Made by a program: the position numbers and the translations under genes. Below, piece after piece: positions 43,703 to 63,633 of a stretch of DNA of 64,000 nt (position 1 is its first letter; every line of letters begins with the position of its first letter). Source of the stretch: Microbacterium sp. MYb66 (GTDB lineage Bacteria; Actinomycetota; Actinomycetes; Actinomycetales; Microbacteriaceae); the NCBI RefSeq assembly GCF_002979435.1, contig NZ_PCOV01000002.1, forward strand, positions 62,001 to 126,000. Direction: 5' to 3'. Under the pieces are notes generated by a model. The model made no database searches, was not told the DNA's origin, and saw only the letters and a program-made list of their open reading frames with translations.

Positions 43703-44074
43703 TCAGCCGAGCGGAGCGCGGAGCGGATAGTCCTGGTCCTCGAGGATCACCTGCGACGCCGCTCCCGTGGTGCGGTTGACGATCACGGGAGCCAGGAGGT
43801 TCACGCTCACCCCGTCGGCCGCGGGATGGGCGACCACGAGGATCAGCGCGTCGTCGGGCGAGCCCAGCGCCAGCCCGTCCGCCTGCTCGTCCGTGAGGAT
43901 CGGCGCGTACTCGCTCAGCACGGTCTGCGGGTCGACGAGATACAGACGCAGTTCGGGGTCCTGGACCGCTCGCATCGAGAAGAGTCCATCGGCCCCGTCG
44001 ACCGGCGCGAGCGCGAAGTCGACGTGCGGCGCCAGCCCGGGCGGCGGAGCGAGGAAGCTCAGCGCCGCGGTCAT
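43703..44074 (-). CDS. fliW: Flagellar assembly factor FliW
   Basis: This 123-residue protein starts MTAALSFLAPPPGL and contains LFSMRAVQDPELRLYLVDP, DALILVVAHPA and VNLLAPVIVNRTTGAASQVIL, the FliW signature segments. FliW binds flagellin and, in many bacteria, antagonises CsrA; csrA is not in this window. Its ATG overlaps flgL by 4 bp, and it ends the leftward flagellar operon flgN-flgK-flgL-fliW. Confidence 0.92.
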   Translation of the reverse strand: MTAALSFLAPPPGLAPHVDFALAPVDGADGLFSMRAVQDPELRLYLVDPQTVLSEYAPILTDEQADGLALGSPDDALILVVAHPAADGVSVNLLAPVIVNRTTGAASQVILEDQDYPLRAPLG

Positions 44075-44952
44075 CGCAGGAAGTCCATGAGCGAGGGCTG
44101 GAGCACACGCGCGTTCACGGCGAGCGCGGAGCGGTACACGAGCTCCTGCGCCTGCAGCCGCACGAGCACCTCGATCGAATCGACATCCTCCACCGCCGTC
44201 CTGCGGGACTCGAGGGACACGGAATTCTGCACTGCCGCCTCCTTGGCGCGTTCGATCTGAGACTGCCGGGTGCCGACCGAGCCCTGCACGCCGAGCATGG
44301 CGGTGCGACGGGAGTCGATCTCGGCCAAGCGGGGGCCGACGTTCGTGCCGGAGCGGAGATCGGCGACGATCTTGTCCACGAGCGCGAACACCGAGTCGTC
44401 GCCGGTGCCGAAGACGGCCGCGCCGTCGGTGTCGACACGCACGGACGCCCCGTCGGACACGCGGCGGGTCACCTCGGCACCGGGCACTCCGCTGTAGCTG
44501 TAGTCCGCGGCGAACGCCGCGGTGTCCGATGTGCCCGCGAACACCGAACGGCCGAGCAGCCGGGTGTTCGCCTGCGCGAGGAGCTCCTTGCGGATTCCTT
44601 CGAGCTCGACGGCCAGGGCCTCCTTCGCCGTGGCGTCGAGCGCTCCGTCGTTCGCCCCCTGCGCGGTGAGGTCGCGGATCCTTCCCAGCAGCGAGGTGCT
44701 CGCGGTGATCGCCCCGTCGGCCGCCGTGACCCACGCGAGTCCGTCGTCGATGTTGCGCGCGTACTGGTCGTTGCGACGCTGCTCGGCATGCAGCGCGAGC
44801 GCGGTCGCGGCCGCGGCCGGGTCGTCGGACGGCGCGGCGAAGGCGCGCTGAGAGGTCGCCTGCTCCTGCAGACGCGCCAGCTCCGTGAGGTTGGACTGCA
44901 GCTGACGCATGGCCGTCTGCGTCATGGATGACGAGGTCACTCGAGAGATCAC
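44071..44952 (-). CDS. flgL: Flagellar hook-associated protein 3 (FlgL)
   Basis: This is a 293-residue flagellin-like junction protein. The N-terminal coiled coil starts VTSSSMTQTAMRQLQSNLTELARLQEQ, and the C-terminal helix carries ESRRTAVEDVDSIEVLVRLQAQELVYRSALAV, typical of FlgL. It links the hook (with FlgK) to the filament. There are 13 bp between the flgK stop and this start. Confidence 0.93.
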   Translation of the reverse strand: MISRVTSSSMTQTAMRQLQSNLTELARLQEQATSQRAFAAPSDDPAAAATALALHAEQRRNDQYARNIDDGLAWVTAADGAITASTSLLGRIRDLTAQGANDGALDATAKEALAVELEGIRKELLAQANTRLLGRSVFAGTSDTAAFAADYSYSGVPGAEVTRRVSDGASVRVDTDGAAVFGTGDDSVFALVDKIVADLRSGTNVGPRLAEIDSRRTAMLGVQGSVGTRQSQIERAKEAAVQNSVSLESRRTAVEDVDSIEVLVRLQAQELVYRSALAVNARVLQPSLMDFLR

Positions 44953-44965
44953 GATGCTCCTTCGC

Positions 44966-46375
44966 TCAGCGTCCGACGAGGCCCGTGCGGTTGATGAGGA
45001 CGTCGAGGGCCTCGTCCACCGCGGTCATCACTCGGGCCGCGGCCTGGTAGGCGGTCTGGTAGGTGAGCAGACTGATCGTCTCCTCGTCGCCGTCGACGGC
45101 TGCGACGGACTGCTGCGCCCCGACCGCGGCCACGGCGGCCGCATCGGAGACCTTCGCTCGCTGCACGTCAGCGGCGGTGGCCACTCCGAAGCGGGTGACG
45201 TGGTCGGACCAGAGGGCATCGGGCGAGGTCGCACTCCGACCGATCTGAGAGATCAGGTCGGCGTTGGTCGCGTCCCAGGCGCCGGCACCGGGAGCGGCGA
45301 GCGCCAGCTCCGACGGCGCGGTCACGGCGACCCTCAGGCCGAGTGCCGCCGAGCCGGTCGTCGGAACGGTGAAGAAGTCTCCGCCCGGCTGCCCGGAAGA
45401 GGTGACGCCCGCGCGATGCTGGGTGTTCAGGGCGTCGGCCAGCGCCGTCGCCACCGCGTCGTACGTCGAGGCGAGCTGCGCGAGCATCCCACCGTCCGCG
45501 GCCGGAGCGAGGACCGCGAGCGACCCGCCGAGTTCGCCGCCGTCGATCGACGCGGGAAGGTCCGGAGCGGATGCCCAGGACACGGTGAAGCGCTGACCGG
45601 CGTCGATCGTTGCCGGTCCGTTCAGAACGAGGTGGCGGGCATCGGAACCGGCGACGAGCGCGTTGCCGCCGACCCGCACGGTCATCGTCCCGTCGCTCTC
45701 CACCGTCGCGGCGGCACCCGACATGCGGGCGACGTTCTGGGCGAGGACGCTGCGCTGGTCGATGAGCTCGTTGGCGGAGCGTCCCGAAGCGAGAGCATCG
45801 CGGATCTCGCCGTTGAGCACCGCGATCTGGTCTGCCGCCGCATTCACCTGGGTCACCGTGCGATCGGCCGCGGCGCGCGCGTCGTTCCACTGGCTCGCGA
45901 CCGTGCGATACCCACCCGCGATCTGGGAGGCGAGCTCCTTCGCCGATTCCAGGATGCTCGAGGCCGCAGCGCCCGAGTCGGGAGTGTTGGCGAGGTCCTG
46001 CCATCCCGACCAGAACTTCGACAGCCTGGCCGCCAGCCCGTTCTCGGTGGGCTCGGCGAGCGAGGCCTCGATCGTGGTCGCGGCGACCGCGCGCGTGGAC
46101 CAGAAGCCCGATGCGGCGAGGGAATCGCGAACCCTGGCGTCGAGCAGAGCGTCACCGAGCCGGGCGACTCCGTCGATCGAGACGCCGTGCCCCGGCAGGG
46201 CCCCCACACTGAAACGCCCCGTCTGCGCGACGGCGGCGACGGCCGAGGTCAGCACGCGCTGCCGCGTGTACCCCTCGGTCTTCTGGTTGGCGATGTTCTG
46301 CCCGACCACGTCCATGCCGCGTCGGGCGGCGGCCAGTCCGCTGGCCGCCGTGTTCAATCCGCTGAAGGTCGACAT
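44966..46375 (-). CDS. flgK: Flagellar hook-associated protein 1 (FlgK)
   Basis: This is a 469-residue protein with the rod/hook N-terminal signature FSGLNTAASGLAAARRGMDVVGQNIANQKTEGYTRQ and the C-terminal helix ETISLLTYQTAYQAAARVMTAVDEALDVLINRTG. The start ATG at 46375 is chosen since the conserved region begins at once; upstream in-frame Met codons lack similarity. It caps the hook and joins it to FlgL. Confidence 0.94.
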   Translation of the reverse strand: MSTFSGLNTAASGLAAARRGMDVVGQNIANQKTEGYTRQRVLTSAVAAVAQTGRFSVGALPGHGVSIDGVARLGDALLDARVRDSLAASGFWSTRAVAATTIEASLAEPTENGLAARLSKFWSGWQDLANTPDSGAAASSILESAKELASQIAGGYRTVASQWNDARAAADRTVTQVNAAADQIAVLNGEIRDALASGRSANELIDQRSVLAQNVARMSGAAATVESDGTMTVRVGGNALVAGSDARHLVLNGPATIDAGQRFTVSWASAPDLPASIDGGELGGSLAVLAPAADGGMLAQLASTYDAVATALADALNTQHRAGVTSSGQPGGDFFTVPTTGSAALGLRVAVTAPSELALAAPGAGAWDATNADLISQIGRSATSPDALWSDHVTRFGVATAADVQRAKVSDAAAVAAVGAQQSVAAVDGDEETISLLTYQTAYQAAARVMTAVDEALDVLINRTGLVGR

Positions 46376-46388
46376 GATCCCCTTCCGG

Positions 46389-46871
46389 TCACATCTCGGT
46401 ATCGATGATGCGCGCTGCGTCGTCGCGAGCGCGGTCACCGTTCGTCGTGTACTCGCCGGTGTCGTGCCCCAGTGCGGCGATCGTCTCCTGGGTCGCGCGG
46501 AGCACGCCGCTGAGCTGCTCCGCGTTGGCGTCGCGCATCTGCTCGACCTCGGCGGCGAGCTTGGTCAGCGCACGCATGTGGTCTGCGAAGACCTCCTGCC
46601 AGGCCCCCTCGGGCGCATGCTCGATCAGTTCGCGGATCGTCGCACCTTCGGGAGCCCCCCACTCCTCGGCGACGGTCGCGACCTCGACGGTGCGTGCCAG
46701 TCCTGCGCCCCGCAGCCGGTCGAGTACCTGATCGATCTCGCGCGCGGCAAACTGTATCCATTGGGATCGTCCGGCGGCGAGCAGCAACTGCTGCTCGTCG
46801 AGCTTGAAGAGAAGCATCTCGAGCAGTTCACGCTCGCGCCACAGCTGTATCGATAGTTCGTTGGCTCCCAT
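46389..46871 (-). CDS. flgN: Flagellar export chaperone FlgN
   Basis: This is a 160-residue all-helical protein starting MGANELSIQLWRERELLEMLLFKLDEQQLLLAAG, the FlgN pattern. It serves as chaperone for FlgK and FlgL, which are encoded directly downstream. ATG 46871 has GGGGATC before it. A sigma-28-type promoter stands 52 bp upstream. Confidence 0.88.
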   Translation of the reverse strand: MGANELSIQLWRERELLEMLLFKLDEQQLLLAAGRSQWIQFAAREIDQVLDRLRGAGLARTVEVATVAEEWGAPEGATIRELIEHAPEGAWQEVFADHMRALTKLAAEVEQMRDANAEQLSGVLRATQETIAALGHDTGEYTTNGDRARDDAARIIDTEM

Positions 46872-46922: not shown

Positions 46923-46949
46923 CTATCGGCTGCCGCGCCCCTAAGGTTA
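46923..46949 (-). promoter_or_regulatory. Sigma-28-type promoter of the flgN-flgK-flgL-fliW operon
   Basis: TAAC-N15-GCCGATAG on the minus strand, 52 bp before flgN. It matches the FliA consensus TAAA-N15-GCCGATAA and is identical in both boxes and spacing to the sites at 47883 and 51220. Confidence 0.85.
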
Positions 46950-46984
46950 CTATGTGGAACGGCGGTGGGTAGTTCTCCCCATGT

Positions 46985-47002
46985 ACATATCTCGGTATAT
47001 GT
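46985..47002. promoter_or_regulatory. AT-rich inverted repeat before the flagellar sigma factor gene
   Basis: ACATAT-N6-ATATGT lies in the most AT-rich stretch of the cluster, about 65 bp before the sigma factor start. It may contain the -10 region of that promoter or an operator. Confidence 0.4.
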
Positions 47003-47067
47003 GATATATGCATCTACTCATCTCCTCGGAGCTTCCGGAGTGCATCCAGAGAGGTGGATCATCCCCC

Positions 47068-47868
47068 ATGTCGTCGCGCGCTGAGCGCAATCTCCTCATA
47101 GAGAGCAACCTCCCTCTGGTCGGATACCTCGCCGCCGAGACCCATTCCCGCGCCACTCACATCCCCCGTGACGAGCTCGCGGCCGTCGGTGCGCTCGCGC
47201 TCGTGACCGCCGCCGAGGCGTTCGATCCTGCACTGGGCGTCCCCTTCGGCGCGTACGCGCGCCGCCGCATCCTCGGCGCCTTCGCCGACGAGATGCGCTC
47301 GATGGACTGGGCGTCCCGCGGCATCCGCAAGCGCATCAAGGAGACGGTCGCCGTCCGCGACACCCTCACCGCCGCGCTCGGCAGAACCGCGACGGCCGCC
47401 GAGGTCGCCACGGCGATGGGCGTCGCGAAGGCGATCGTCGTCGAAGCGCTCGGCGACGCCGCGCGCAGCGTGACCACGATCGACGACCCCTCCGCCCGCG
47501 ACGTGGCCGCCGAGATCCCGCTTCCCGAGGAATCGGCACTCGTCGGCGAACGGCGCGAGGTGCTCGAGCGGGCCGTCGCCGCCCTCCCGGAGCGCATGCG
47601 CCGGATCGTGCAGGCGGTGTACTTCGACGAGCGACCGGTCAAGGAGATCGCCGAGGAGCTGGGCGTGACGCACTCCGCGGTCTCGCAGCAGCGCTCCGAG
47701 GCGATCAGGCTCCTGCGCGATGCGCTGGACCGATACTTCGCCGAGGGACAGGCCCCTGCCACCACGACACGGGTCTCCGCCGGAGCACGCGACGCGTACT
47801 TCTCGCGGATCGCCGATGCGGCAGGGTCCCGGATCGCGGACATCTTCCGCGAATCCGCCCCCGCCTGA
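47068..47868 (+). CDS. fliA: Flagellar sigma factor (FliA/WhiG type)
   Basis: This is a 266-residue sigma factor with region 2 (LVGYLAAETHS... DELAAVGALALVTAAEAFDP), the RRRILGAFADEMRSMDW segment characteristic of FliA/WhiG, region 3, and region 4 (YFDERPVKEIAEELGVTHSAVSQQRSEAI). It should direct RNA polymerase to the sigma-28-type promoters found in this cluster. ATG 47068 is preceded by GAGGTGG; the frame is open for 20 more codons upstream without similarity. FlgM was not seen. Confidence 0.92.
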   Translation: MSSRAERNLLIESNLPLVGYLAAETHSRATHIPRDELAAVGALALVTAAEAFDPALGVPFGAYARRRILGAFADEMRSMDWASRGIRKRIKETVAVRDTLTAALGRTATAAEVATAMGVAKAIVVEALGDAARSVTTIDDPSARDVAAEIPLPEESALVGERREVLERAVAALPERMRRIVQAVYFDERPVKEIAEELGVTHSAVSQQRSEAIRLLRDALDRYFAEGQAPATTTRVSAGARDAYFSRIADAAGSRIADIFRESAPA

Positions 47869-47882
47869 CCCGCGCGCTCGAC

Positions 47883-47909
47883 TAACGGACGCGCGCCCTC
47901 CGCCGATAG
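47883..47909 (+). promoter_or_regulatory. Sigma-28-type promoter of the flagellin gene
   Basis: TAAC-N15-GCCGATAG, 59 bp before the flagellin ATG, with the same boxes and spacing as the sites at 46923-46949 and 51220-51246. Confidence 0.88.
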
Positions 47910-47968
47910 GTGTGTGCGGGAGACCACGGATGGTCCCCCGGTACGAACAAATCACGGAGGAGACCCTC

Positions 47969-48799
47969 ATGGGTATGCAGATCAACACCAATGTGTCGGC
48001 GCTCAACGCCTACCGCAACCTGTCCAGCACGCAGAACGACCTGTCGAAGTCGCTCGAGAAGCTCTCGAGCGGTCTGCGCATCAACCGCGCGGCGGACGAC
48101 GCTGCAGGCCTCGCGATCTCCGAGGGCCTGCGCTCGCAGGTCAACGGCCTGAACGTCGCGGCCCGCAACGCCCAGGACGGCATCTCGGTCATCCAGACTG
48201 CAGAAGGCGCCCTGACCGAGGTCCACTCGATCCTGCAGCGCGTTCGCGACCTGACCGCTCAGGGTGCGAACGACTCGAACAACGCGAAGTCGCGCGACGC
48301 GATCCAGAAGGAGATCAACACCCTCGGTGATGAGCTCACCCGGATCGCCGAGAGCACGAACTTCAACGGCATCAAGCTGCTCTCGGGCGGCACGACGCTG
48401 ACGTTCCAGGTCGGCGCGGGCGCCGTCGCCGCCGAGGACCAGATCTCGGTGGCCCTGACCAACTTCGCCGACCTCGGCGCGGACATCAAGGGCTACGCGG
48501 CGACGATGACGACGGCGGCGACGTACGGCGCCGCACTCGCCGATCTCGACACCGAGATCCAGGCGGTCTCGACCGCACGCGCCGGCTACGGTGCACTGCA
48601 GAACCGGTTCGAGTCGACCATCAACAGCCTCAACGTGTCGGCGGAGAACCTCGCCGCCGCCGAGAGCCGCATCCGCGACACCGACATGGCGTCCGAGATG
48701 GTCAAGTTCACCTCGGCGAACATCCTGTCGCAGGCGGGCACGGCCATGCTGGCCCAGGCCAACCAGGCCAACCAGGGCGTGCTCCAGCTGCTGCGCTGA
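47969..48799 (+). CDS. fliC: Flagellin
   Basis: This 276-residue protein has the N-terminal D0/D1 signature (MQINTNVSALNAYRNL, SGLRINRAADDAAGLAI) and the C-terminal match (AAESRIRDTDMASEMVKFT, QANQGVLQLLR). It is short: the central surface domains are nearly absent, leaving only a small D1 insert. GGAGGAG stands 6 bp before the ATG at 47969; a second Met two codons on is possible. It has its own promoter and terminator, allowing high expression. Confidence 0.97.
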   Translation: MGMQINTNVSALNAYRNLSSTQNDLSKSLEKLSSGLRINRAADDAAGLAISEGLRSQVNGLNVAARNAQDGISVIQTAEGALTEVHSILQRVRDLTAQGANDSNNAKSRDAIQKEINTLGDELTRIAESTNFNGIKLLSGGTTLTFQVGAGAVAAEDQISVALTNFADLGADIKGYAATMTTAATYGAALADLDTEIQAVSTARAGYGALQNRFESTINSLNVSAENLAAAESRIRDTDMASEMVKFTSANILSQAGTAMLAQANQANQGVLQLLR

Positions 48800-48810
48800 A
48801 CCACGCCGTA

Positions 48811-48850
48811 GGAGGTCCGGGTGGCGGCGTCCACCGCCACCCGGGCCTCC
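48811..48850 (+). terminator. Terminator after flagellin
   Basis: A 17-bp stem with a single G-U pair (GGAGGTCCGGGTGGCGG / CCGCCACCCGGGCCTCC) and a 6-nt loop follows the flagellin stop by 11 bp. fliD is probably expressed by partial read-through or its own promoter. Confidence 0.78.
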
Positions 48851-48881
48851 TCCGCACTGCACCTGAATCGGAAAGGCGCGC

Positions 48882-50264
48882 ATGTCCCTCTCACTCGACG
48901 GTCTCGTCTCCGGCCTGAAGACCACGGAGGTCATCAAGGCCCTGATGGACGTGCACGCCATCCCGCGCTCGCTGCTCAAGGCGAAGATGGATGACAAGAA
49001 CGGCATCGTCACCCAGCTGCAGACGCTGAACACCGCGATCCAGAATCTCGCCACGGCCGCCGAGAAGGCCGCGTCGCGCGACGGACTGGCCCGATTCACG
49101 ACATCGTCGTCGTCGACCTCGGTCACCGTCGCCACTCGCGCCGGCGCCGCTCCCGTCTCGGCGGAGATCGTCGTAGACGCGGTCGCGAAGAACCACACCA
49201 TCGTCTCGGCAGCCTCGAACGGGTGGCCCGTCGATCCGCCGGTGATCACCCTTGAGAACGCCAAGGGCGAGCGTCTGCAGATCGAGGCCGACGGCGTCTC
49301 GATGCAAGACGTCGCCCAGGCCATCAACGAAGCGGGCTTCGGAGTCGTCGCCTCCGCTGTGCCCGCGGGCCGCGATGCCGACGGCAACCCCCTGCACCGC
49401 CTGCAGCTGCGCGCGGCCGACTCCGGCGAAGGCGGTCAGTTCCGCGCCCATCGCGGCGATGTCGCCGCGGTCGAGGCCGGCACCGCGTCCGACCTCGCGA
49501 CCGAAGCGGGAGCGGCCGTCATCGCGGTGGGCGCCGACGCACGGCTGCGACTGTGGGCGGGCACCAGTGCCGAACAGGTGCTGACCTCGTCGAACAACAC
49601 CTTCACCGACCTGTTCGACGGTGTCGACGTGACGGTGTCCGGGGTATCCGCCGACCCCGTCACGGTCGGTGTGACCATCGACACCGAGGCCCGCACGAAG
49701 GCCTCCGCCGACTTCATCGCCGCGGTCAAGGACATCCTCACACGCATCGACAACGGATCGAAGGCCACCGTCGCCGCGAACCCGGGCGACAAGACGACCC
49801 TGGGCGTGTTCACCGGCGACAGCACCGTCCGCTCGCTGCGGACGGCGATCGCCGACGCCATCCAGTATCCGGTGGACGGCGTCTCCCCCTCCTCCATCGG
49901 CATCTCCACCGACATGTACGGTGTGCTGACCTTCGACGAGGAGAAGTTCGCCGAAGCCCTCGCGAAAGACCCGGATGCGGTCGCCGGACTGTTCTCCGAC
50001 GTCGCCGCGCGCGTGCAGGACACCGCGAAGGTCTACTCCGACAAGTACGAAGGCCTGCTCACCTCCCGAATCACCGGCCAGGAGAGCGAGGTCAAGAGCC
50101 TCGGCGAGCAGATGGAGCGCTGGGACGTGCGCCTCGCCCAGCGGAAGGCGACGCTCGAGCGCACCTACGCCCGCCTCGAGGTGATGCTGTCGCAGCTGCA
50201 GTCGCAGTCGACCTACCTGTCGTCGCAGATCGCCGCCCTTCCGACCTCGAGCTCGGGGAAGTGA
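48882..50264 (+). CDS. fliD: Flagellar filament cap protein FliD
   Basis: This is a 460-residue protein with the N-terminal LDGLVSGLKTTEVIKALMDVHAIP, the SGEGGQFRAHR-like region of the middle domain and the C-terminal coiled coil (LGEQMERWDVRLAQRKATLERTYARLEVMLSQLQSQ typed as FliD_C). FliD caps the filament tip and guides flagellin folding. It is 2 bp upstream of fliS. Confidence 0.93.
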   Translation: MSLSLDGLVSGLKTTEVIKALMDVHAIPRSLLKAKMDDKNGIVTQLQTLNTAIQNLATAAEKAASRDGLARFTTSSSSTSVTVATRAGAAPVSAEIVVDAVAKNHTIVSAASNGWPVDPPVITLENAKGERLQIEADGVSMQDVAQAINEAGFGVVASAVPAGRDADGNPLHRLQLRAADSGEGGQFRAHRGDVAAVEAGTASDLATEAGAAVIAVGADARLRLWAGTSAEQVLTSSNNTFTDLFDGVDVTVSGVSADPVTVGVTIDTEARTKASADFIAAVKDILTRIDNGSKATVAANPGDKTTLGVFTGDSTVRSLRTAIADAIQYPVDGVSPSSIGISTDMYGVLTFDEEKFAEALAKDPDAVAGLFSDVAARVQDTAKVYSDKYEGLLTSRITGQESEVKSLGEQMERWDVRLAQRKATLERTYARLEVMLSQLQSQSTYLSSQIAALPTSSSGK

Positions 50265-50266
50265 GC

Positions 50267-50653
50267 ATGAACGCCGCCCTGCGTGCGCAGCAGCGCTACC
50301 GTGACGATGCCGTCCTCTCGGCACCACCCGAGCGTCTCGTGACGCTGCTGTACGACCGGCTGCTGCTCGACATCGAGCGCGGCGAGGCCGCCCAGCGGGC
50401 CGAGGACTGGACCGAGGCGAACGCCCAGCTCCAGCACGCGCAGGCCATCGTGTCGGAGCTGACCTCGTCGTTGACCGACGACTGGAACGGCAGCGCCGAC
50501 CTGCGCTCGCTGTACGTGTTCCTGTCGCAGACCCTCATCGGCGCGAACATCGGCCGCGACCCCGAGCGCACACGCGCCTGCCACGGGATCGTCGCCCCGC
50601 TGCGGGAAGCCTGGCACGAAGCCGCGCGGACCGTCGCGGAGACGCGTTCGTGA
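50267..50653 (+). CDS. fliS: Flagellar export chaperone FliS
   Basis: This is a 128-residue helical protein with ERLVTLLYDRLLLDIERGEAA, close to the FliS signature, and LYVFLSQTLIGANIGRDP. It binds the flagellin C-terminus and prevents early polymerisation. It starts 2 bp after fliD and overlaps the next gene by 4 bp. Confidence 0.92.
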   Translation: MNAALRAQQRYRDDAVLSAPPERLVTLLYDRLLLDIERGEAAQRAEDWTEANAQLQHAQAIVSELTSSLTDDWNGSADLRSLYVFLSQTLIGANIGRDPERTRACHGIVAPLREAWHEAARTVAETRS

Positions 50654-50973
50654 GCGCAGACGACGTGACCGCAGACGATGTGACAGCGGAGTGGACCGAC
50701 CTGCTGGATCGCCTCGAGCTCGACGCCGACCGGATCCTCGCGGCCGCCCCCGGAACCGCGGACACGGCCGTCATCGAAGCGTGGACACCACCCACCACTC
50801 CCCTGCCCCCGGCGCTCATCGACCGGGCCCGCCACGTGATCGAACGTCAGCGCCTCGCGATGGAGCGCGCCCGCACGGATCTCGACGGCCTCCGACAGCA
50901 CCTCAGCGTGGTGGATCGGATCCCGGGGACCCGGCGCCCCGATGCTCCCGCATTCCTGGACGTGGACGGCTGA
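50650..50973 (+). CDS. Small flagellar-cluster protein in the FliT position
   Basis: This is a 107-residue protein starting at a GTG that overlaps the fliS stop. It is predicted mainly helical, with a long segment ALIDRARHVIERQRLAMERARTDLDGL. Its place directly after fliD-fliS is where fliT, the FliD chaperone, often lies, but I see no firm sequence match. It ends in the first copy of a 17-bp direct repeat. Confidence 0.7.
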   Translation: MSADDVTADDVTAEWTDLLDRLELDADRILAAAPGTADTAVIEAWTPPTTPLPPALIDRARHVIERQRLAMERARTDLDGLRQHLSVVDRIPGTRRPDAPAFLDVDG

Positions 50974-50981
50974 GACCGCTC
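50965..50981 (+). repeat. 17-bp direct repeat, copy 1
   Basis: GACGGCTGAGACCGCTC includes the stop codon of the fliT-position gene. The same 17 bases recur at 51201-51217. Confidence 0.85.
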
Positions 50982-51200
50982 GGCCGGCGTGGCCTCGGCG
51001 TCCCACGAGACGATCCGTGACCACCTATCGTCGTCTGGAGTCGCGTGATCTGCGCCGCGTGTTCACGAGACTGGCGATCAATCCAGTGAGCAACAGAAGG
51101 CCCGAAACGAGCCAGAGGATTGCCGCAATATTGCTGAGGGGAGAGACCTGTCTCAAGAGCATCGGGCCGATCAGATATCGCCGCTGTGCTACCTGCGGTC
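50982..51200. other. 219-bp segment between direct repeats, no supported gene
   Basis: This is the main part of the only gap over 300 bp (50974-51318). It is visibly lower in GC than its neighbours. The minus strand holds a possible 45-residue frame (51162 to 51025) with one hydrophobic helix (NIAAILWLVSGLLLLTGLIA) and an Arg-rich end, but no ribosome binding site, so I do not call it a gene. The bounding direct repeats suggest an insertion or a diverged duplication. Confidence 0.5.
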
Positions 51201-51217
51201 GACGGCTGAGACCGCTC
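51201..51217 (+). repeat. 17-bp direct repeat, copy 2
   Basis: GACGGCTGAGACCGCTC, identical to 50965-50981; it lies 2 bp before the TAAC box of the flgB promoter. Confidence 0.85.
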
Positions 51218-51219
51218 CC

Positions 51220-51246
51220 TAACGCGGTGCGCGACCCTGCCGATAG
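51220..51246 (+). promoter_or_regulatory. Sigma-28-type promoter of the flgB-to-flgE operon
   Basis: TAAC-N15-GCCGATAG, 72 bp before the flgB start, identical in both boxes and spacing to the sites at 46923 and 47883. It probably drives the whole basal-body and hook operon. Confidence 0.85.
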
Positions 51247-51318: not shown

Positions 51319-51660
51319 GTGTTCGATTCTGTGACCATCAACGCGCTGACGAGTGCGCTCGACGGCCTCGCGCTGCGCCAGCGTGCGATCTCCGACAACA
51401 TCGCCAACATCAACACCCCGAACTATCACGCCAAGCGCGTGCAGTTCGAGGAGGCGCTCGCCCGCTCGATCGATGCGGGCGACGGGCGGGTCGGCGCGAC
51501 CGTCGGCACCTCCCTCGAGCCGACGCGCCTGAACGGCAACAACGTCAACCTCGACACCGAGACCCTGTCCAGCATCGACACGATGCTGCGCTACCAGTTC
51601 GCGACGCAGGCCGTGAACGGCTCGTTCACGTCGATGCGCACCGCGATGAGGACCTCATGA
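51319..51660 (+). CDS. flgB: Flagellar basal-body rod protein FlgB
   Basis: This is a 113-residue rod protein from a GTG start, GGGGAG upstream. It has the rod signature LALRQRAISDNIANINTPNYHAKRV and the C-terminal MLRYQFATQAVNGSFTSMRTAM. It forms the proximal rod. It overlaps flgC by 4 bp. Confidence 0.93.
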   Translation: MFDSVTINALTSALDGLALRQRAISDNIANINTPNYHAKRVQFEEALARSIDAGDGRVGATVGTSLEPTRLNGNNVNLDTETLSSIDTMLRYQFATQAVNGSFTSMRTAMRTS

Positions 51661-60406: not shown

Positions 60407-60814
60407 TCAGACCAGTTCGCTCACCAGCTGCTCGATGCGCGCCCGGATGTCGTCGCGGATCGGACGGACGGCGTCGATCCCCTGACCGGCCGGGTCGTCC
60501 AGCGTCCAGTCCTCGTAGCGCTTGCCGGGGAAGATGGGGCAGGCGTCGCCGCAGCCCATCGTGATGACGACATCCGACGCCTGCACGGCCGCGGTCGTGA
60601 GGACCTTGGGCTGTTCAGCGGTGATGTCGATCCCGAGTTCGCTCATGGCCTCGACGGCGATCGGATTGATCTGCTCGGCGGGCATGGAGCCGGCGGATCG
60701 CACCTCGATGCGGTCGCCGGCGATGTCGCGGAGGAATCCCGCGGCCATCTGCGAGCGTCCGGCGTTGTGCACGCAGACGAAGAGGACGGAGGGCTTGGTG
60801 GGCGTGTCGGTCAT
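60407..60814 (-). CDS. arsC: Arsenate reductase (low-molecular-weight phosphatase type ArsC)
   Basis: This is a 135-residue enzyme with the phosphatase P-loop VCVHNAGRSQ (CX5R) near the N-terminus and VVITMGCGDACPIFPGKRYEDWTLDDPAGQ, whose two cysteines match the redox-active Cys pair of thioredoxin- or mycothiol-coupled ArsC. It reduces As(V) to As(III). It is the last gene of the leftward ars unit, 23 bp after the ArsR-ArsC fusion. Confidence 0.93.
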   Translation of the reverse strand: MTDTPTKPSVLFVCVHNAGRSQMAAGFLRDIAGDRIEVRSAGSMPAEQINPIAVEAMSELGIDITAEQPKVLTTAAVQASDVVITMGCGDACPIFPGKRYEDWTLDDPAGQGIDAVRPIRDDIRARIEQLVSELV

Positions 60815-60837
60815 GGTCGCTCCTGGTGAATCGTCGG

Positions 60838-61830
60838 TCACGAGAGAAGGTCGTCGACGAGCACGCGCACGCGTCGGGCGATGTCGTCGCTGATGGCTTC
60901 GACGCCCTCGCGCGAGGCGAGGGCGGGGTCTCCGACCGCCCAGTCGTCGTAGCGGACGCCGGGGATCACGGGACAGACGTCGCCGCAGCCCATCGTGATG
61001 ACGACATCGGACGCGCGGACGGCGTCGTCGGTGAGAGGTTTCGGGAAGCGCTCTGCGGCCGCATCGCCTTCGATCTCGGCGAGGATCGAGCGGACGTGCG
61101 GGTGGACGACGTCGGCAGGAGCGGACCCCGCCGAGCGCGCGACCACCTTGCCTGCTGCGAGCTTGTCGACCAGCGCTGCAGCGAGCTGCGAACGTCCGGC
61201 GTTGGCGACGCAGACGAAGAGCACCTGGGGCACGGATGCGTCGCGGTCGCGGGTGAGGTCGGCGAGGCGCTGGCGGGCGAAGCGCTCGGTGAGGGGAACG
61301 AGCGACGACGTCACCCGGGTATTCCGAGCGAGCGCGGTGTAGGACTCCCGAACGGTCGTGAGCACGACGTCGGCCTCGAGCTCGGGGACCTCCGCCGCGA
61401 GCTCCTCCGCCAGACGGGTCACTCGTGCGTCGAAGTCGGGCCGGCGCCGATCGTCTTCGTCGTCGACGCTCCATGGCGCGACAGACGCCGGCGCGAACGA
61501 ATCGAGCAGAGCCGTCACGGCGGTGCGCCGGGTCGGGTTGATCCGGTACCAGACCCACGTCCCCCGGCGCTCCGAGGTGAGGACGTCGACGTCCTTGAGC
61601 ACCTTGAGGTGATGGGACACCGTGGGCTGCGAGACGTCGGCGAGCTCGGCGAGATCGCAGACGCACGACTCTCCCCGCGGATCGGAGGCGATGGCGGACA
61701 GCATCCGCAGCCGCAGCGGATCCGACAGCGCCTTCAGCGTGGCCGCCACCGCGGAAGCGGTCTCCCGCCCGATGGCATGGCCGCCGGCGGGGCTGCCGGT
61801 GTCATCTGCGATCGTCCGGGTGACGTTCAC
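60838..61830 (-). CDS. ArsR regulator fused to an ArsC-like phosphatase
   Basis: From GTG 61830 (GGAGGGG upstream) this encodes 330 residues in three parts. First is an ArsR winged helix with the metal motif ESCVCDLAELADVSQPTVSHHLKVL. Then comes a ~60-residue helical segment (TRLAEELAAEVPELEADVV), and finally an LMW-phosphatase ArsC domain with VCVANAGRSQ (CX5R) and ITMGCGDVCP. All key cysteines are present. Sensor and enzyme are therefore in one chain. The frame is open to ATG 61878, but the operator abuts that codon, making the GTG likelier. Confidence 0.88.
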   Translation of the reverse strand: MNVTRTIADDTGSPAGGHAIGRETASAVAATLKALSDPLRLRMLSAIASDPRGESCVCDLAELADVSQPTVSHHLKVLKDVDVLTSERRGTWVWYRINPTRRTAVTALLDSFAPASVAPWSVDDEDDRRRPDFDARVTRLAEELAAEVPELEADVVLTTVRESYTALARNTRVTSSLVPLTERFARQRLADLTRDRDASVPQVLFVCVANAGRSQLAAALVDKLAAGKVVARSAGSAPADVVHPHVRSILAEIEGDAAAERFPKPLTDDAVRASDVVITMGCGDVCPVIPGVRYDDWAVGDPALASREGVEAISDDIARRVRVLVDDLLS

Positions 61831-61881
61831 GCCAGCGTCCCCTCCGCGGGGGACCTGCGTCCTCGGATCCACATGCATCTA

Positions 61882-61899
61882 TATTGACGAATATCAATA
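61882..61899 (-). promoter_or_regulatory. ArsR-type operator upstream of the ArsR-ArsC fusion
   Basis: TATTGA-N6-TCAATA is a perfect inverted repeat in the ArsR/SmtB box format, lying between the flavoprotein stop and the fusion gene. It matches the site at 63257-63274. Confidence 0.75.
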
Positions 61900-61912
61900 C
61901 AGAGGGCAACCG

Positions 61913-63208
61913 CTAGGAAGCGCTCCGTGCGCCGATCTGGAGGAGGGCGGGAGCTGCACAGCAGCCGGCCGCCGTCTCGTCGAATCCGCCCGAACCACCG
62001 CAGACCCCGGTCTCCGGAAGGGTGAGCTCGTTGCGAGCCGCTGCGTCGTGATCGCCGACGAGATGCGCGGCGACGCTGCGCACCTGCTCGTAGCCGGTCA
62101 GCGCAAGGAAGGTCGGCGCCCGGCCGTACGACTTGGCCCCCACGATGAAGAGCGCGTGCTCCGGATGCGCGAGCGCTCTCGCTCCGGTCGCCGACACCGA
62201 TCCGCAGGAATGGATGTTCGGGTCGATCTCGGAGGCGATGCCCGCAACGGCTTCGAGCGCGGGATCGAGGTCGATCCGCAGCTCTCGCAGCATCCCCGTA
62301 TCGGGTCGGAAGCCCGTGAGCGCGAACACGCGCCCGACCGCCGGCACCTCTCGCCCATCCTCGGCGACGACCGTCAGGCCGTCGGCGCCCTGCCGGAACT
62401 CGGCGACCCGGAATCCCCTCACCAGATCCACGACCCCGTCGTCGATGACCTTGCGCGCGCGCGAGCCGAGAGCGGCACGCTCGGGGAGCTCATCCCCGGC
62501 TCCGCCGCCGAACACGTTCGCGGCGTTTCCTCGGCGCAGCAGCCAGGTCACGCGAGTGCCCGGAGACCGGCGGGCGAGCTCGCTCAGGCGCAGCACGGCG
62601 TGCGTCGCCGAGTGCCCCGCTCCGATCACGACGACATGCGAGCCGGCGAGTTCGGAGACATCCGCCGGGATGCGGTACGAGATCAGATCGGCCGCCGCAG
62701 TCTCGCCGAGGGCCCGGAACCCGTCCGCCCCCGCGGGGTTCGGAAGCCCCCAGGTGCCGCTCGCATCGACGACCGCGCGAGCGATGATCCGGGCCTCATC
62801 ACCCGCGGCACCGACGGTGTGGACGACGAACGGTCGGCTCCTGCGTCCGCCGTCGACGACCTTGTCGCCGCCCTGACGTGCAACCCCGGTGACCGTGGTC
62901 GCGTAGCGGACCCGCTCCCCCAGAGCATCCGCGAGGGGTGCCAGGTATTCGCGTATCCATTCCGCGCCGGTCGGATATCCCGAGGCGGGTGCACGCCAGC
63001 CCGTCGGCTCGAGCAGGCGACGAGAAGCCGCATCCGTGAGTTCCGGCCATGCCGAGAACAGGCGCACATGCCCCCACTCCGCGATCGCCGACGCCGGCTC
63101 GTGCCCACGTTCCACGACGACGACGTTCTCGCCGCGTTCGACAAGGTGCGCCGCGGCCGCAAGGCCCTGCGGGCCCGCTCCGATGACGACGACAGGAAGC
63201 TCGGACAT
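61913..63208 (-). CDS. ArsO-like FAD-dependent oxidoreductase with cysteine-rich tail
   Basis: This is a 431-residue flavoprotein. The FAD-binding Rossmann motif VVVIGAGPQGLAAAAHL is at the N-terminus, and a second dinucleotide motif (VVVIGAGHSATHAVL) near ~185 binds NAD(P)H, as in flavin monooxygenases. The last 30 residues contain GVCGGSGG and GCCAAP, a Cys-rich tail suited to arsenic binding. Such proteins occur in ars operons (ArsO) with unsettled function. ATG 63208 follows GAGGAG; a GTG one codon before is possible. Confidence 0.85.
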   Translation of the reverse strand: MSELPVVVIGAGPQGLAAAAHLVERGENVVVVERGHEPASAIAEWGHVRLFSAWPELTDAASRRLLEPTGWRAPASGYPTGAEWIREYLAPLADALGERVRYATTVTGVARQGGDKVVDGGRRSRPFVVHTVGAAGDEARIIARAVVDASGTWGLPNPAGADGFRALGETAAADLISYRIPADVSELAGSHVVVIGAGHSATHAVLRLSELARRSPGTRVTWLLRRGNAANVFGGGAGDELPERAALGSRARKVIDDGVVDLVRGFRVAEFRQGADGLTVVAEDGREVPAVGRVFALTGFRPDTGMLRELRIDLDPALEAVAGIASEIDPNIHSCGSVSATGARALAHPEHALFIVGAKSYGRAPTFLALTGYEQVRSVAAHLVGDHDAAARNELTLPETGVCGGSGGFDETAAGCCAAPALLQIGARSAS

Positions 63209-63256
63209 CACATCTCCTCAGATCGAAAACTTTCAATATGAAGACTGTCGCCGATG

Positions 63257-63274
63257 TATCGAAGATTGTCAATA
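63257..63274 (+). promoter_or_regulatory. ArsR-type operator in the divergent ars promoter
   Basis: TATTGA-N6-TCGATA (minus-strand reading) matches the operator at 61882-61899 in 11 of 12 arm bases. It lies between the flavoprotein gene and arsR and could control both. Confidence 0.65.
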
Positions 63275-63291
63275 CGTGCGAGAATGGACCC

Positions 63292-63633
63292 GTGACCCTG
63301 CCGACGACAATCGAAGCGCGCACCTGCTGCGTCCCGCCGATCACTCCCTCGATGTCCGTCGAGGACGCCGAACGTGTCGCCCGGGTGTTCAAGGCGCTCG
63401 GCGATCCGACGCGCGTCAGGCTGTTGTCCCTCATCGCCGCGGGAGCCGGCGGGGAGGCGTGCATCTGCGATCTGACCGAACCCGTCGGCCTCTCACAGGG
63501 CACCGTCTCCCACCACATGAAGCTCCTCGCGGAGGCGGGTCTTGTCACGCGCGAACAGCGCGGCAAGTGGGCCTACTTCGCCCTCAACGGCGACGCGATG
63601 GATGCCGCGGCCTCCGCCCTCCGCGCGGTGTGA
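63292..63633 (+). CDS. arsR: ArsR family arsenic-responsive repressor
   Basis: This is a 113-residue winged-helix repressor with ARVFKALGDPTRVRLLSLIA, the metal motif EACICDLTEP (CxC on helix 3) and recognition helix LSQGTVSHHMKLLAEAGLV. An extra CC pair lies near the N-terminus (EARTCCVPP). GTG 63292 is chosen because the operator at 63257-63274 sits just upstream; a longer open frame from 63238 would run through it. Confidence 0.9.
   Translation: MTLPTTIEARTCCVPPITPSMSVEDAERVARVFKALGDPTRVRLLSLIAAGAGGEACICDLTEPVGLSQGTVSHHMKLLAEAGLVTREQRGKWAYFALNGDAMDAAASALRAV

Follow-up and report, generated by a model that had tools for sequence, protein, structure and literature searches.

Which sigma factor turns on the flagellar genes of Microbacterium, through what promoter sequence and how early in assembly, is the question raised by a two-box sequence, TAAC-N15-GCCGATAG, that recurs in the flagellar gene cluster of a 64-kb stretch of DNA, here called the window (C11:62001-126000 of a 3,877,274-base Microbacterium genome; coordinates are those of the window unless a contig is named). 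Perfect copies lie at 46923-46949 on the minus strand and at 47883-47909 and 51220-51246 on the plus strand, exactly where an earlier note on this DNA had placed three sigma-28-type promoters. Sequence comparison makes it very likely, in our view, that these are promoters read by the FliA-type sigma factor encoded among them, that they belong to a regulon of five promoters, that this FliA acts as an early master sigma factor and that its promoter code is a derived one.

Probable flagellar promoters in and beyond the window

These three sites are the only perfect matches in the whole genome, and all stand at the starts of flagellar operons; base composition predicts 0.18 such matches per genome and 0.003 per window. 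With up to two mismatches the window holds five matches against a mean of 1.39 after shuffling, a count of five being reached by 1 of 100 shuffles. With at most one mismatch the genome yields six forward matches in total versus three for the reversed pattern, so little above this control that the number is weak evidence there and position is what informs; a one-mismatch site at C1:359239, inside a long reading frame on the opposite strand, is probably a chance match. All three window sites display hallmarks of the sigma-28 class, namely the -10 core GCCGATA, a spacer of 15 nucleotides (nt) and a position ahead of flagellar genes, while the classical TAAA of the -35 box and final A of the -10 box are replaced in all three by TAAC and G, the departure from the FliA consensus that the earlier note described. 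On these in silico grounds its sigma-28 assignment is upheld, and the sites look like real flagellar promoters.

The minus-strand site (TAACCTTAGGGGCGCGGCAGCCGATAG), with an equivalent before flgN in relatives, would serve flgN-flgK-flgL; the site at 47883-47909, which in those Microbacterium loci where it occurs begins 84-107 nt ahead of fliC, would serve fliC-fliD-fliS; and the site at 51220-51246, whose start lies about 96-114 nt upstream of flgB in most of the relatives with such a site, would serve flgB-flgC-fliE-fliF-fliG...flgE (FliE matches in relatives are unreliable, the query being out of frame). Further sites had been expected at stator, chemotaxis and fliM/N genes. The stator and fliM/N sites lie just past the window's end, each with one mismatch: C11:128728-128754 (GCCGACAG) precedes a small flbD-like frame, named by eye, and then motA-motB, and C11:130704-130730 (CCCGATAG) stands at the start of a fliM-like frame, likewise named by eye, followed by fliN, fliP, fliQ and flhA (Pfam). 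Both recur in relatives, the fliM site in 11 of 12 Microbacterium loci, the window's own counted (missing in L181), and the motA site in 9 of the 11 with room for it (missing in L176 and L181); L187, having no gene match, is left out of these counts. The chemotaxis site did not materialize, none appearing genome-wide at up to one mismatch in a scan that included no search for chemotaxis genes themselves. With operon extents inferred from gene order, the five sites precede each mapped flagellar operon, fliA excepted. The small regulon that had been proposed is thus borne out in silico as a five-promoter set—flgN-flgK-flgL, fliC-fliD-fliS, flgB...flgE, flbD-motA-motB and fliM...fliP-fliQ-flhA—that probably turns on the mapped flagellar operons together.

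A perfect site is present in 23 of 198 Microbacterium genomes, which hold 59 in all where the reversed pattern has 10, and its presence follows the type of FliA. A FliA match at E <= 1e-60 occurs in 38 genomes, 23 with a canonical version (E <= 4.9e-127) and 15 with a divergent one (1.1e-100 to 8e-62); perfect sites are found in 21 of the 23 canonical-FliA genomes versus 2 of the 175 others (Fisher p = 5.7e-24), and the two canonical genomes without one (G188 and G192) have close variants such as CTTAC...GCCGATAG. Among named records the nearest relatives of the window belong to Microbacterium. Sites precede flgN, fliC and flgB at comparable distances across Microbacterium, Curtobacterium, Arthrobacter, Frondihabitans and others; their variants include TTAC and GTCGATAG. 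In the best 80 of 221 named loci, the looser pattern TAAN-N15-GCCGATAN has 114 sites, whose fourth base is always C, never giving TAAA, and whose final -10 base is G in 107 and A in 7. The T[A/T]AC form of the -35 box extends over Microbacteriaceae, Micrococcaceae and one further family; TCA(G) is the form in other flagellated Actinomycetes. The earlier note was right to suspect a lineage-specific motif, though the lineage comprises these families and not one species; its yardstick has to be changed, for against other flagellated Actinomycetes the ancestral-looking -35 box is TCA(G), not TAAA, and two positions differ. A literature search found no paper on FliA promoters of Micrococcales, weak evidence of novelty with subscription journals mostly uncovered. 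One record titled as an Acidobacteria metagenome-assembled genome (L094) carries a flagellar cluster of Microbacteriaceae type and is probably misbinned.

The candidate sigma factor and the -35 box

The candidate reader is encoded inside the flagellar cluster, as befits a FliA/WhiG member, by fliA (47068-47868, plus strand), whose product of 266 amino acids from a conserved ATG matches Pfam sigma-70 regions 2, 3 and 4, all over cut-off; FliA_WhiG is its best NCBIfam family, at 129.2 bits against a cut-off of 189.6. RNA polymerase carrying this sigma factor would read the three window sites. By alignment, the recognition helix of region 4.2 (47671-47694, plus strand) is HSAVSQQR, with H202 and A204, differing from the ESRVSQ[LI]H of solved FliA and WhiG chains (6pmi and 6pfv; 1rp3 has VSRVSQLK). 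Because the solved chains have ESRVSQ[LI]H, the window's form (HxA) is probably the derived one. H-S-A-V/I-S-Q, with two or three isoleucine forms, is found in all FliA of the best 80 of 221 loci; the FliA of other Actinomycetes, whose promoters have TCA(G), carry x-S-R-V/I-S-Q (xSR).

Promoter class and helix class go together across 191 loci with 168 distinct FliA sequences, a sample in which the -10 box was picked regardless of the -35 box; 60 stretches had been hand-picked to spread over families. With an HxA helix, 251 of 254 scored promoters are T[A/T]AC, 3 are other and none is TCA; with an xSR helix, 80 of 95 are TCA, 1 is T[A/T]AC and 14 are neither. At control spacings of 5-8 nt, about 3 of 253 HxA and about 3 of 95 xSR promoters fall in either class. 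The two classes fix bases by definition, and base counts within them are informative at free positions only; in the xSR class, promoters whose FliA has E as first helix residue show G at the fifth base in 39 of 49 cases, against 8 of 23 with Q and 0 of 6 with R. In a tree of 128 FliA sequences built with the helix masked, all 64 xSR rows lie on one side of a single branch (support 100), the HxA label requiring three changes and the odd rows two. Recognition sequence and sigma factor seem, then, to have changed in concert: in this branch of the Actinomycetes the -35 box would have passed from TCA(G) to T[A/T]AC alongside a change of the helix from x-S-R-V/I-S-Q to H-S/A-A-V/I-S-Q.

A third code and the competing explanations

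The 15 Microbacterium genomes with divergent FliA (13 examined, including G543; G125 only partly) have a complete flagellar cluster and two FliA paralogues. The paralogue beside fliC has RADPAGERGRDK where the window's FliA has SMDWASRGIRKR, and its helix reads SHAYVSKLR in 11 of 12 (SRPRVNKVR in G043). Promoters in these genomes follow a third code, GGTTAC or AGTTAC, 13-14 nt, then GTCGCGATAG or GTCGCGAATG, found before fliC (10/12), flgB (12/12), flgN (3/3), motA (3/3) and fliP (2/3) and about 750 nt before fliI in 10 of 12. The pattern was derived after viewing the DNA upstream of fliC, flgB and flgN, and a stricter form was used for the genus scan; with a strict form, the best 80 of 221 named loci have 0 sites and 16 third-code loci have 39, and with T[A/T]AC-N15-GCCGATAG the numbers are 128 and 1, respectively. 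In the scan, GGTTAC-N12..14-GTCGCGATAG gave 96 sites in 25 of the 198 genomes (reversed pattern, 0), including all 15 with divergent FliA and none of the 23 canonical ones.

The other ten third-code genomes all carry the fliC-side FliA (E <= 5.4e-77), in seven of them as the sole match to either paralogue at E <= 1e-8, and all 12 loci that were read (ten new, two known) have an ADPAG FliA beside fliC, the helix SH[AP]Y[VI]SK and a third-code fliC promoter. Since the fliC-side version is present in all ten and alone in seven, the third code is likely read by it and not by the second paralogue. The second paralogue lies near flgL in L248, L251, L252 and L256, part of the third-code genomes, and is 52-55% identical to the window's FliA (46% in L252); its target promoters were not found. 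Third-code FliA rows form long branches in the tree, and their code may have grown out of the second or arrived with a transferred cluster. We lean towards a history in which flagellar promoter recognition, generally regarded as almost invariant among bacteria, was rewritten twice, at the base of a Micrococcales branch (-35 box and helix) and once within Microbacterium (GGTTAC-N12..14-GTCGCGATAG with a FliA bearing A-D-P-A-G and S-H-A-Y-V-S-K), the second, more canonical paralogue of some of these genomes being perhaps a trace of the duplication that let all promoters change.

Several points weigh against the explanation favoured here. The window's sigma factor scores under the family cut-off; 14 of the xSR promoters fit neither class, and L198 combines CTAAC with an xSR helix; 49 HxA and 97 xSR slots went unscored, with too little upstream DNA or no -10 box; and the tree is a quick version, with about half of the named HxA rows left out and the long-branch rows L223-L226 unsure. 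The first switch, moreover, is a single event on the tree, so that helix residues of that branch with no causal part would co-vary too. E. coli FliA, which has R at the equivalent place in the helix, is said to read TAAA; R alone therefore does not dictate C, and a simple rule of one residue for one base was dropped, as E. coli FliA shares its R with the TCA group. These last two points suit an account in which promoters and sigma factor are as described and the helix changes did not cause the new -35 box, either sharing a branch with it or leaving specificity to other parts of FliA or the polymerase: E-S-R-V-S-Q is common to E. coli and actinobacterial xSR FliA, yet goes with TAAA in one and TCA(G) in the other. 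We take this account seriously without expecting it to hold. The changed residues belong to that helix of region 4.2 which aligns with the -35 recognition helix, where contacts from residue to base would be made; within the xSR class the fifth base shifts with the first residue; and in Microbacterium a second change of helix, together with region 2.4, accompanies a second change of both boxes.

That something other than FliA reads the boxes, be it a flagellar activator using them as its operator or a different sigma factor, we consider improbable. FliA dependence is inferred from comparison, and the genome has other sigma-70-type genes (31 Sigma70_r4 matches at E <= 0.001); but the two boxes, the 15 or sometimes 16 nt between them, the GCCGATA core and an orientation towards flagellar genes fit the TAAA / GCCGATAA consensus given in PMC8325347, and the class of site tracks the helix class of FliA, as well as FliA type within one genus. 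To chance resemblance in GC-rich DNA we give hardly any credence: the one-mismatch count, close to its reversed control, would suit it, whereas the perfect matches exceed expectation, all stand at operon starts and are conserved across genera at near-constant distance.

Order of expression, neighbouring genes and known systems

The earlier note had placed early genes such as flgB under a late sigma factor. The flgB basal-body operon does have a FliA site; it is the label 'late' that appears wrong. FlgM was found in none of 59 Microbacterium genomes (not all flagellated; at least 15 carry a FliA type seen here), E. coli and B. subtilis controls being positive, and no FliA-type promoter for fliA occurs upstream of it on the plus strand of the window at up to two mismatches; for these reasons FliA seems to be an early master sigma, not a late one. 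The absence of FlgM agrees with PMC10746217, which describes the later actinobacterial classes as lacking it. FliA as an early master sigma without FlgM would switch on basal body, export gate, motor and filament jointly, and, if basal-body genes need FliA, a checkpoint of the FlgM type would block itself. Basal body, motor and filament are thus probably all under one sigma factor, with no checkpoint of the enteric kind.

Transcription of fliA itself presumably depends on the housekeeping sigma factor and an additional regulator, starting in the flgN-fliA intergenic region (46950-47067, plus strand), in which ACATAT-N6-ATATGT forms an inverted repeat (46985-47002). Scanned for sigma-70 promoters, the region yielded a single weak candidate, not at fliA. 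Of 31 aligned Microbacterium sequences, 11 (L056 and L058-L067) have a perfect inverted repeat, ATGAG-N6-CTCAT, upstream of fliA, possibly the operator of some master regulator; the window's group has GATGG...CCCCATG in its place. The flgN promoters of G000, G186, G060 and G023 have the entire 15-nt spacer in common (CTTAGGGGCGCGGCA), an identity that exceeds the need of the promoter boxes and overlaps the divergent fliA upstream region.

On the minus strand lie flgN (46389-46871; Pfam FlgN, 3.3e-17 for the longer frame), flgK (44966-46375; FlgK_D1, 4.6e-53) and flgL (44071-44952; Flagellin_N, 1.2e-16, named FlgL from its position after flgK), and on the plus strand the flagellin gene fliC (47969-48799; Flagellin_N, 5.5e-48), fliD (48882-50264; FliD_C, 6.7e-33), fliS (50267-50653; FliS, 5.9e-27) and flgB, first of the basal-body operon (51319-51660; Flg_bb_rod, 1.3e-06). 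A 107-amino-acid frame after fliS (50650-50973), retained in many related loci, has no Pfam or NCBIfam match as a candidate anti-sigma factor. Between flgE and the motility genes, 60407-63633 holds ArsR and low-molecular-weight phosphatase domains (60838-61878 tested) and other arsenic-type frames recognized by eye; the flgB-to-motA distance differs among relatives.

A sigma factor in charge of many promoters cannot easily change, since every site has to change with it. The orthologous flagellar promoters compared here use three codes, each with its own version of FliA and two of them within one genus, and such natural pairs suit swap experiments on the co-evolution of regulator and site and offer candidate orthogonal sigma-promoter pairs for Actinobacteria; a single sigma factor that apparently starts basal body and filament without FlgM also raises the question of how assembly order is kept. 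The earlier reading named the right kind of system, drew its scope too narrowly and erred in taking FliA as late.

Among known systems, other flagellated Actinomycetes (TCA(G)-N15-GCCGATNR) have promoters in the same place before fliC and flgN, with the same spacing and a closely related FliA, but theirs combine TCA(G) with an xSR helix and often G as the seventh -10 base, where here T[A/T]AC accompanies HxA; a CTCA-type motif was reportedly described in Actinoplanes missouriensis by Jang et al. in 2016. The third code of other Microbacterium shares operons, positions and a sigma gene beside fliC with the window's code and differs in both boxes and in a FliA with A-D-P-A-G in region 2.4 and an S-H-A-Y-V-S-K helix. 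In the FlhDC-FliA-FlgM hierarchy of E. coli, a FliA-type sigma factor drives fliC, flgK and flgL, as it would here; the differences are that in Microbacterium the FliA site also stands before basal-body operons and that no FlgM was found. The sigma-28 or FliA-WhiG consensus, given in PMC8325347 as TAAA at -35 and GCCGATAA at -10, is matched in the 15-nt distance between boxes, the GCCGATA core, the flagellar genes served and the cognate FliA-type sigma factor; unlike it, the sites here have TAAC or TTAC at -35 and G as the final -10 base, and they include basal-body operons and omit fliA itself. Though two classical consensus bases differ and the FliA_WhiG cut-off is not reached, the system, judged by its sequences, works like a sigma-28 regulon.

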